Assembly: GCA_024400395.1 (NCBI GenBank)
Contig: JAKSMW010000016.1
Span: 1-43,548 of the forward strand
Length of the DNA stretch: 43,548 bases
Source of the DNA: Bacteroidales bacterium
GTDB taxonomy: Bacteria > Bacteroidota > Bacteroidia > Bacteroidales > F082
Direction: 5' to 3'
A program made the translations under genes and the position numbers. Positions 41,330 through 43,538 of this stretch are shown here, one piece after another (the first letter of the stretch is position 1; the number at the start of each line of letters is the position of its first letter). A model generated the notes under the pieces. That model was given only the letters and a program-made list of their open reading frames with translations. It had not been told where the DNA came from and searched no databases.

Positions 41330-41337
41330 TATTTTTG
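41330..41337 (+). promoter_or_regulatory. Candidate -7 box upstream of the structured leader
   Basis: TATTTTTG matches TAnnTTTG, placing a transcript start near 41344, about 55 nt before the first paired segment of the structured element. There is no TTG 19 nt upstream. The rest of 41244-41397 shows no gene; it is AT-rich. Confidence 0.5.
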
Positions 41338-41397
41338 CAAACTGAATGAAGAAATGTAAAATAGAAAATAATTGAATAAAAATTAGACATAACTAAA

Positions 41398-41558
41398 GCA
41401 TAAGCTTTATTCTTTCGAGTCCGAAAGTTGGCGCTTAAAGGGATTACTAACTGAAAGAATAGGTTTGATGCTCACGTCAAAAGCGTGGGCTTGACTTATT
41501 TGAAGTTAGTATGGTACGCCAACACCACGGACTTAAAACAGTCAAGTTTCACGCTTTT
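41398..41558 (+). ncRNA. Candidate structured leader RNA with two alternative folds
   Basis: The 338-bp gap before the XRE gene contains dense nested complementarity. Stem P1 pairs 41398-41416 with 41453-41471 (14 Watson-Crick and 3 G-U of 19). Stem P2 pairs 41479-41496 with 41540-41558 (16 Watson-Crick, 2 G-U, one bulge). The P1 loop pairs with the P2 loop through three helices in antiparallel order: 41417-41423 with 41528-41534, 41427-41433 with 41517-41523, and 41445-41452 with 41504-41511. Local hairpins 41412-41417/41422-41427 and 41470-41476/41484-41490 compete with P1 and P2. All non-Watson-Crick pairs in these helices except two P1 mismatches are G-U on the plus strand, which points to plus-strand RNA. 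It ends 23 nt before the XRE ATG. I cannot name an RNA family; it may be a known Bacteroidales element or new. Confidence 0.6.
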
Positions 41559-41581: not shown

Positions 41582-41833
41582 ATGGAATACAACATCGGAC
41601 AGGCAATAACGGACTACATGAGGGAAAACAAAATAAGGCAGGCAATGTTGGCCAAGATGTTAAATTATGATCCTGGAAATTTGAACCGTCTCCTGAAAAA
41701 AAACAACATGAGCCTTGACATGATATTGAGAATATCGGTCGCGCTGAAGTTCAATTTCCTGCGCGAAGCCTCGTGCCGGCTCACAGAAGAAATCATGAAG
41801 GATGAAGTGTATGTAGTGCATCCATTTCTTTAG
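41582..41833 (+). CDS. Small XRE-type helix-turn-helix regulator
   Basis: An 83-residue DNA-binding protein made almost wholly of one helix-turn-helix domain. IGQAITDYMRENKIRQAMLAKMLNYDPGNLNRLLKKNNMSLDMILRISVALKFNFL follows the lambda-repressor pattern (recognition helix around DPGNLNRLLKK, then SLDMILRISVALKFNF). A short tail ends in HPFL. Such proteins usually act as dimeric repressors of nearby genes or of themselves. It is preceded by the structured leader, so it may be controlled at the RNA level, and it converges on the broken gene at 41851-42325 with a 17-bp gap. Its target is unknown. Confidence 0.8.
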   Translation: MEYNIGQAITDYMRENKIRQAMLAKMLNYDPGNLNRLLKKNNMSLDMILRISVALKFNFLREASCRLTEEIMKDEVYVVHPFL

Positions 41834-42329: not shown

Positions 42330-42689
42330 CTAAATTGTTACAATTTTTACACGCAAACCGAGTCTTTTAGCGGTGTCAATCATATTTTTGGTGCCACGAG
42401 ATTTTCCATCCCAGAAGGCAATCAAGGTGCCAGCCATGCGAGCCATCTGCTCATTTCGACGAGGTCCGGCAGAACGACCGTATGTTTTCCAATCTGCATG
42501 AACTACTTTCAATCCAAGATTGTGTTCTTTTGCAAATCGTTCGCCTAATGCATCAACACCAGAAGCTCCACCAGAGATAATCTCAATCTCAACTTTGTCA
42601 ATGAGCTTCCCAATGTAGTTCATCACTTCTTTTTCCACAACTGCGTAGTCGTTGAAATCACGACATCCAGCAATAATAATGTGCATCAT
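42330..42689 (-). CDS. DUF2493 / SLOG-superfamily protein
   Basis: A 119-residue Rossmann-like protein. The first strand is HIIIAGCRDFNDY. A nucleotide-binding Gly-rich loop follows (ISGGASGVDALGERFAKE), then VHADWKTYGRSAGPRRNEQMARMAG, then LIAFWDGKSRGTKNMIDTA. This is the full DUF2493 (YAcAr-type SLOG) signature, related to DprA and LOG proteins. SLOG domains bind nucleotides or nucleotide-derived signals, and DUF2493 members are common in phages and defence-linked loci; the reaction is unknown. The start may be either of two adjacent ATGs (42689 or 42686). It is followed at 4 nt by the broken gene and is divergent from the WYL regulator with a 147-bp gap. Confidence 0.88.
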   Translation of the reverse strand: MMHIIIAGCRDFNDYAVVEKEVMNYIGKLIDKVEIEIISGGASGVDALGERFAKEHNLGLKVVHADWKTYGRSAGPRRNEQMARMAGTLIAFWDGKSRGTKNMIDTAKRLGLRVKIVTI

Positions 42690-42836: not shown

Positions 42837-43538
42837 ATGATAAGTAAAACATATCTTAGATACATTTGGCTACTTGATACAATCAACCAGTCAAGATTTC
42901 CGCTTACTTACGACCATATTGTCAGGATATGGGAAAGTTCTCCTTATGCCTACATGGGCGGTTTACCTATTCGCACCTTCCACGAGCACCGTAAAGGTAT
43001 TGAAGAAATGTTTGGAGTTATCATAGAATGTGATAAATCCAAGGGGTACACATATTATATCAAAAATCCCGAAGTACTGGAGAAGAATACTTATGCACAA
43101 CTATTATTACGTAAGTATAGCGTTCCGCAGGATTTCTCAACTTTCAGCATGATGCGCGACCGTATCTTGCTTGAAGAAATACCACACGGTACAGCATACT
43201 TTGATTCTATTGTTGAATCTATGAGGCGTAACACAGAACTCATCATTGACTATCAACGTTATGAGGGACAGCTGGAAACACTTACTATGCAGCCCTATTC
43301 CATGAGGGTTTATAACAGAAGGTGGTATGTACTTGGCTACATAAAAGAAAAGGAAGTAATCAGACACCTGGCATTAGAAAGATTTCTCTACCTGCATACG
43401 ACAAGCAATAAATTTGAATTTCCCAAAGACTTCAATCCACGAAAGTACTATGACAACGTCGTAGGAATATACGTTGACGAAAACTGTCTTACCCTGAAAA
43501 AAGGGGGTCGGGGGCGGCGCAGGAGAAGCCGCGGGTGA
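42837..43538 (+). CDS. WYL-domain transcriptional regulator, damaged at the contig end
   Basis: As read, 233 residues. The N-terminal 85 residues are an atypical winged helix (LRYIWLLDTINQSRFPLTYDHIVRIWESS...FHEHRKGIEEMFGVIIEC). The WYL domain follows at about 135-205: LIIDYQRYEGQLETLTMQPYSMRVYNRRWYVLGYI (motif variant RWYVLG), then IRHLALERFLYLHTT. Homologues I know run to about 300 residues or more. Here the frame turns at about residue 220 into GGRGRRRRSRG and stops, in a GC-rich stretch unlike the rest. The true gene almost certainly continues and the last 14 or so residues are not genuine. WYL proteins sense small ligands or nucleic acids and often regulate defence loci. Confidence 0.8.
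   Translation: MISKTYLRYIWLLDTINQSRFPLTYDHIVRIWESSPYAYMGGLPIRTFHEHRKGIEEMFGVIIECDKSKGYTYYIKNPEVLEKNTYAQLLLRKYSVPQDFSTFSMMRDRILLEEIPHGTAYFDSIVESMRRNTELIIDYQRYEGQLETLTMQPYSMRVYNRRWYVLGYIKEKEVIRHLALERFLYLHTTSNKFEFPKDFNPRKYYDNVVGIYVDENCLTLKKGGRGRRRRSRG

Follow-up and report, generated by a model that had tools for sequence, protein, structure and literature searches.

A candidate attenuator leader RNA with two alternative folds, widespread in Bacteroidota

What is the role of two long stem-loops with mutually complementary loops that stand just ahead of a gene for a small XRE-type regulator? The question is raised by the end of a 43,548-nt contig of a Bacteroidales bacterium (JAKSMW010000016.1), referred to below in its full length as the window. 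An initial annotation had described two stems, P1 and P2, together with three loop-loop helices, and had proposed a plus-strand RNA that switches between two states. On the basis of comparison with related sequences, we identify the segment as one copy of a leader RNA family of ~165 nt that is spread throughout the phylum Bacteroidota.

All five helices are present at the window, and shuffle tests place them far from chance (Table 1). The loop-loop helices of 7, 7, and 8 pairs are exact, with one G-U pair among them, and the duplex of loop 1 with loop 2 is calculated at −27.2 kcal/mol compared to a shuffled mean of −11.7 (0 of 3000 shuffles equally stable). When 196 nt of the plus strand were folded, the minimum-energy structure (−57.6; z = −4.0; 1 of 200 shuffles equally stable) was the “long arm” that the annotation had offered as the second state, hereafter the rod. 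Within the rod, the loops pair in place of P1 and P2, and the knot that closure of all helices would require is therefore unnecessary. The minus strand of the element is a good folder too (z = −3.4; 0 of 200 shuffles equally stable), so folding alone cannot decide the strand.

Table 1. Features of the leader copy and the gene behind it (positions in the window).
Feature	Position	Strand	Basis and remarks
Putative −7 promoter box TATTTTTG (TAnnTTTG)	41330..41337	+	sequence; 57 nt before the first base of the element, 41395
Segment 1	41395..41416	+	pairs with segment 2 in the terminator state (= P1)
Loop 1/left arm	41417..41452	+	var1 41417-41423, var2 41427-41433, var3 41445-41452
Conserved unpaired AAA, internal loop between var1 and var2	41424..41426	+	A in 85, 98, and 98% (105 copies)
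Segment 2	41453..41477	+	partner: segment 1 (terminator state) or segment 3 (rod)
Segment 3	41483..41502	+	partner: segment 2 (rod) or segment 4 (terminator)
Loop 2/right arm	41503..41538	+	var3' 41504-41511, var2' 41517-41523, var1' 41528-41534; conserved ACC 41524-41526
Segment 4	41540..41554	+	3' strand of the putative terminator stem (= P2)
Short U-tract TTTT	41555..41558	+	sequence; closes the putative terminator stem; only four long
Stem P1	41398-41416/41453-41471		17 pairs ungapped, 18 with one bulge; −14.9 kcal/mol; 15 of 3000 shuffles equally stable
Stem P2	41479-41496/41540-41558		18 pairs, one bulge; −22.3 kcal/mol; 2 of 3000 shuffles equally stable
83-aa XRE-type regulator (HTH_26)	41582..41833	+	Pfam PF13443, 25.5 bits vs cut-off 22; gene behind the leader

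Extent of the family

When the window element was compared by BLAST with 60 relatives, 9 genomes had matches at E ≤ 0.1, including elsewhere in the genus and in other families of its order. With a model restricted to the apical hairpin, 32 of the 60 were matched at E ≤ 1, and one genome, G051, alone contained 18 distinct places. In G051, the full-length model located 31 distinct places once seven opposite-strand rows had been set aside, and it gave 12 matches at E ≤ 1 in the window’s own genome. At E ≤ 0.001, it matched 37 of the 38 genomes of the window’s genus; each positive genome had between 1 and 21 matches, counts that may include opposite-strand repeats of one place. Model R1 was built from five rows (alignment A3). 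A shallow scan of the phylum, in which at most seven candidates were scored per genome, was positive for 52 of 395 genomes, and a pattern scan of named genomes yielded at least 119 stretches. Eighty pattern loci from this set were examined: for 77 of them, the source is named as a member of the Bacteroidota, and the remaining three come from metagenome bins labelled Paenibacillus, Limnohabitans, and Chlorobiota. Among the matches listed, the family reaches Flavobacterium, Chryseobacterium, Prevotella, Bacteroides, and Porphyromonas. When 41 copies were compared side by side, the layout was constant, and the arms were variable yet complementary.

The annotation had suggested a comparison with Rfam. 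No family of Rfam 15 reached its gathering score at any copy scanned, that of the window included; 18 loci returned one tRNA, located elsewhere. In e-value scans, the only match at a copy was EGFOA-assoc-1, on the opposite strand of L086, at 17.4 bits compared to a gathering score of 224.5.

Covariation, strand, and sequence constraint

Covariation was evaluated in alignment A9, which contains 84 copies (81 submitted loci), none of them pattern-selected, and which was aligned with the rod model, a bias towards the rod and not towards helices 3:4 or 1:2. Left aside were the pattern loci L126-L205; L296, identical to L252; L258, L259, and L319; L055, present as L253; weaker copies upstream of XRE genes; and 18 further copies (L086-L088, L090-L092, L094-L098, L100, L101, L104, L110, L115, L117, and L118). 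In the rod, 91.9% of cells were paired, 40 of 41 pairs had two-sided changes, and the covariation score was 0.790 compared to 0.233 in shuffled alignments and at most 0.097 when partners were slid by 1 to 3 columns. Helix 3:4 was paired in 85.7% of cells compared to 79.8%, with a score of 0.333 compared to 0.228 (reached in 0 of 500 shuffles) and two-sided changes in 13 of 14 pairs. For helix 1:2, the corresponding values were 76.0% compared to 68.5% and 0.308 compared to 0.202 (0 of 500 shuffles); the number of its pairs with two-sided changes was not above that in shuffles (185 of 500). Alignment A7 (105 copies) pointed in the same direction (rod, 0.707 compared to 0.195; 3:4, 0.250 compared to 0.186; 1:2, 0.245 compared to 0.184); since some of its rows are pattern loci, in which letters of segments 2, 3, and 4 are fixed, A9 is preferred. 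The rod score in A5 (26 copies) was 0.547 compared to 0.207 in shuffles. Thus, the homologues do not keep their primary sequence without covariation, an outcome named at the outset as contrary to a structured RNA, but vary with compensation.

Segments 2, 3, and 4 change jointly. Core triplets include CTCACGC/GCGTGGG/CCACGC, CCCGTGC/GTGCGGG/CCGCAC, CCCGTGT/GCACGGG/CCGTGC, and CTCACGG/CCGTGGG/TTCACGG among the triplets listed (40 of 74 distinct), a few of which pair poorly or are misaligned. Partner permutation was carried out on 125 copies, pattern loci included (128 minus one with too little flank and minus L115 and L117, which have no T-run). Own partners paired better than permuted ones for 1:2, 2:3, 3:4, and loop 1:loop 2 (0 of 2000 permutations each), with kinship among copies kept in the comparison. 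In the same-sense control, 2:4, own partners were no better (1648 of 2000 permutations reached their value). Own partners also beat permuted ones for 1:4 (0 of 2000), and the closed rod might for this reason itself terminate. What the comparison of copies documents is a set of RNA-level folds, their mutual exclusion, and their place before genes. With P1 (= 1:2), P2 (= 3:4), and the rod all covarying over the 84 copies, the proposal of a structured plus-strand RNA with alternative folds is supported, and we regard it as very probable that the family is a genuine leader RNA under selection, in which two covarying folds exclude each other.

The annotation had argued that the G-T pairs are favourable only in plus-strand RNA. 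In the three switch helices, G-U pairs far exceed A-C mismatches (212 compared to 50 in 1:2, 141 to 15 in 2:3, and 231 to 17 in 3:4), in counts that include pattern loci, whose pattern permits G-U and not A-C at one or two positions; 118, 121, 120, and 120 copies were left for the G-U and A-C counts after repeat removal. This excess indicates selection on plus-strand RNA. The plus-strand fold was also the stabler one in 117 of 125 copies. The arms, being almost wholly Watson-Crick, tell little about the strand: by duplex energy, the plus strand was stabler in only 53 of 125 copies, that is, without a plus-strand advantage, and among all arm mismatches A-C (123) slightly outnumbered G-U (105). 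Arm mismatches with pairs on both sides were 36 G-U compared to 6 A-C.

The lack of an energy advantage and of an overall G-U excess in the arms would suit an element acting as DNA, such as a mobile-element end, a cruciform recombination site, or an invertible repeat, as would the many dispersed copies and near-perfect inverted repeats. However, a DNA-level palindrome is disfavoured by the strong plus-strand G-U bias of the switch helices and of the pair-flanked arm mismatches. A mobile element, whose insertion would be independent of gene orientation, is disfavoured by the orientation of the copies towards genes (67 of 70, see below); in addition, the exact pattern occurred in 3 stretches in 2.9 million viral contigs, and plasmids and phages searched with the window copy gave no match. 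No link to a mobile-element terminus, the other outcome that the annotation had named as contrary, was thus found in these collections, and we consider a DNA element highly improbable.

Constraint on the RNA is uneven. In copy pairs with switch segments 90 to 95% alike (n = 29), agreement was 0.38 in var1, 0.45 in var3, and 0.71 in var2; in pairs with switch segments below 0.7, it was 0.28 to 0.33 in var1 and 0.25 to 0.26 in var3. These figures indicate that segments able to pair in two ways are kept in sequence, whereas most of the arm sequence, which has a single partner, is not. Loop 1 is complementary to loop 2 although the arm sequence is nearly free. The internal loop of the rod, with unpaired AAA opposite ACCU, is kept at 71 to 99% per base and at 97 to 99% for the central AA and CC; it is likely a contact site. 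A look for a riboswitch core revealed only this small conserved loop, and the downstream families (best 25 of 56) had no obvious common pathway.

Hypermutation of the arms was suspected since they are unlike even where switch segments are at least 90% identical. In paralogue pairs, however, the flanks have diverged too (upstream identity of 0.74 for the L099 pair and 0.76 for L249/L250), and an identical leader-gene pair has identical arms. Compensated drift therefore suffices, and hypermutation was rejected. Avoidance of cross-pairing between the arms of one genome found no support: with coarse loop boundaries, strong arm cross-pairing was no rarer within genomes (0.0031, 652 pairs) than between them (0.0037, 1904 pairs).

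Several sets of related copies can be described individually. At L099 (G051:C295:3275 and 5176), two adjacent paralogous genes have a leader each; the switch segments are 97% identical, and var1 differs at most positions, with the partner side following. Three paralogous genes in the window’s genome, L249, L250, and L251 (G000:C45:1327, C59:56616, and C22:3039), are ones that we take to be MBOAT-like. Between the C22 and C45 paralogues, upstream identity is 0.88 and protein identity 0.89, yet that of the element is 0.66, and the C22 leader belongs to another sub-class, as if it had been exchanged. In two different species, L252 and L296 (G000:C60:170 and G025:C12:126039) have an identical leader, downstream flank, and 124-aa gene, with upstream identity of 0.99, which suggests recent transfer of leader and gene as a unit. 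Segment 1 around GCTATTGTTCG and the arm helix CCTNNN are common across genera in L136, L181, L182, L186, L188, L199, L200, and L203, several of which precede DNA methylases. Most Flavobacterium SusC leaders have CTGGTAA in common instead.

Position of the leader and the genes behind it

The −7 promoter consensus is TAnnTTTG, and the box that the annotation had placed ~60 nt upstream of the window element is there (Table 1). Seven near-duplicate loci were taken out before boxes and orientations were counted. Within 160 nt upstream of the element, the box was found on the plus strand in 81 of 111 copies and on the minus strand in 19; on the plus strand in the 50 nt after the element, it was found in none of the 111. 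Minus-strand boxes after the element occurred in 2 to 4 of 111 copies per 50-nt bin, and plus-strand boxes there in 0 to 6. At the other end, a run of at least four T’s was located at the expected place in 38 of 41 copies, according to a model without the T run, compared to 7 of 41 in a control window; a clear T-run is missing in L115, L117, and L125.

The next gene was co-directional in 67 of 70 pattern copies (74 after removal of near-duplicates, 4 of them without a called downstream gene), compared to 275 of 381 neighbouring genes at the same loci (p = 4e-7). The distance from the T-run to the ATG had a median of 63 nt and was at most 100 nt in 46 of 67 cases; in ten Flavobacterium-type SusC leaders, the ATG lies 272 to 604 nt from the T-run. 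In five multi-copy genomes, the direction was the same in 60 of 63 copies with a called downstream open reading frame (9 of 72 had none). With a box upstream, none just after the element, and a gene close behind, the putative terminator seems to lie inside a leader, and expression would need read-through past it. The promoter-like box and the terminator-like end could also delimit a separate small RNA gene, with its own promoter and an end at the U-run, whose sequence-free arms could serve as seeds and for which the downstream gene would be a mere neighbour. That neighbour is, however, co-directional and close, it has no obvious promoter of its own just after the element, and one leader is identical along with its gene in two genomes; a separate small RNA is accordingly an improbable reading compared to that of a leader.

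The leaders precede diverse genes. Among 67 downstream proteins (7 of 74 were left out as duplicates or fragments), at least 10 have TonB plug and at least 10 CarboxypepD_reg-like domains (SusC type); other matches listed, among the best 25 of 56 families, are DNA methylases of several restriction-modification types and DUF4595, LRR, Peptidase C10, and GmrSD families. Lipoprotein genes are also among the classes behind leader copies. The XRE context noted in the annotation is a real association. When 30 loci were chosen by XRE protein similarity alone (from 48 protein matches; 29 from the genus and 1 from another family, the window included), a same-strand copy was found close upstream in 17 at E ≤ 0.1 and in 12 at E ≤ 0.001, with copy-to-XRE gaps of 4 to 130 nt; the L028 copy precedes a tandem XRE neighbour. 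An XRE homologue 81% identical to the window protein is also behind a copy (L014). Small XRE regulators thus appear as a favourite partner near the window, yet they are only one of many gene classes, and an XRE-specific riboregulator as the whole story was rejected, since most copies seen precede other genes. In the window’s genome, copies precede the XRE gene and others, presumably the three MBOAT-like paralogues, a type III methylase-like gene, and secreted proteins.

The neighbourhood of the leader-XRE unit differs between genomes: it stands beside coaE in the window and beside what we take to be an rpsP-like gene in G025 (L010). Behind the XRE gene of the window are a YspA/SLOG protein (42330-42689, minus strand) and a WYL-domain protein (42837-43538, plus strand). 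The final ~45 bases of the contig seem to stand out by a high GC content, perhaps as an artefact of assembly.

A putative attenuator and its relation to known systems

As judged by sequence, the leader lies between promoter box and gene in the same direction, a stem is followed by a U-run, and the putative antiterminator shares a strand with the putative terminator and excludes it. We consider it probable, though by no means assured, that the window segment controls the XRE gene in cis, as a transcription attenuator within that gene’s 5' leader. Its transcription, termination, read-through, and trigger we infer as follows. Transcription would start ~50 nt upstream of the element, as judged from the −7 box. 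In the rod state, segments 2 and 3 and the arms of loops 1 and 2 would zip together, segment 3 would be kept from segment 4, and the polymerase would read into the gene. In the terminator state, segment 1 would hold segment 2, and the free segment 3 would pair with segment 4 before the U-run as an intrinsic terminator. The rod, which is able to form before segment 4 is made, is the predicted default. The choice between the two states would be swayed by some factor, perhaps one that recognises the AAA/ACCU loop or the 5' hairpin.

Energies were evaluated for 117 of the 125 copies (eight had no core match). For 116 of 117, the structure of lowest energy contained no 3:4 core; when the transcript was truncated ahead of segment 4, segment 3 had found an upstream partner in 116 of 117 as well. 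The energy penalty for imposing the terminator core averages 13.0 kcal/mol over the copies and is 5.1 kcal/mol at the window; at such a cost, the core would rarely form without a factor. With the rod as the lowest-energy fold, read-through is the predicted default, and termination would call for a factor or else take place at the base of the rod. This is the weakest step of the attenuator model. The same energies are consistent with a post-transcriptional leader, in which the rod would be a double-stranded platform for RNase III or for an RNA-binding protein, serving to process or stabilise the mRNA, with only a secondary role for the U-run and 3:4. The near-wholly Watson-Crick, little conserved arms look as if only double-strandedness counts, and the conserved unpaired AAA/ACCU within the rod would fit as well. 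Yet this platform leaves helix 3:4, its covariation and joint changes, and the T-run unexplained, and we consider it unlikely, if less so than the small RNA or the DNA element.

Within the attenuator reading, the fixed switch and internal loop could be read by a common factor while the free arms provide a private address, the terminated leader acting in trans on sister transcripts of its own gene and on no others. We view this extension as improbable; if it were true, the family would exert self-antisense attenuation over surface receptors, restriction-modification, and XRE regulators.

Like trp-leader and T-box attenuators, the family has a 5' leader with alternating helices 1:2, 2:3, and 3:4 and a U-run at the end. 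Unlike them, it has no conserved leader peptide by eye, its antiterminator is lengthened by two long, near sequence-free arms, and it spans a phylum on unrelated gene classes. A leader peptide was rejected because the short ATG frame after the promoter box of the window is not kept, by eye, in L010 and L002. The attenuator and long loops with copy-specific pairing recall pT181-type antisense attenuation, but here the complement is in cis, and the opposite-strand −7 box downstream is not above background.

FopS and GibS of Bacteroides are multicopy small RNAs linked to SusC genes, FopS having a single-stranded 5' stretch and one terminator hairpin, in the passages of PMC11697453 considered. The likeness lies in multiple copies in Bacteroidota and the SusC link; as far as those passages describe FopS, its layout of a 5' single-stranded seed and then one hairpin differs from that of our family, a rod of 165 nt in leaders ahead of genes. 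Flavo-1, Bacteroidales-1, Bacteroides-1, and Bacteroid-trp, candidate RNAs of the same phylum according to Rfam and the part of PMC2864571 considered, had no match at the window or the copies scanned. HMP2_4205 and HMP2_1032 (132 and 106 bp), described in the excerpt of PMC8040213 as palindromic terminator candidates of Bacteroidetes, one of them mostly near TonB, resemble the family in phylum, palindromic form, and predicted termination and differ in length; on this comparison by description, they might overlap with it (PMC8040213). For Flavobacterium psychrophilum, the passage considered reports 64 structured 5' regions without itemising them (PMC9723704). A literature search of titles and abstract openings returned no description of the element, and an earlier unnamed listing, for example in supplements, is possible. 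The leader family appears to be a new class inside a known type of regulation.

To our knowledge, few 5' cis-regulatory RNAs are known in Bacteroidota. The family displays a form of RNA evolution in which segments with two or more partners are held and one-partner arms drift with compensation. If the leader attenuates, Bacteroidota of the gut, the mouth, and the environment would share one layer of control over surface and defence genes, and the trans factor behind it would become a concrete target.
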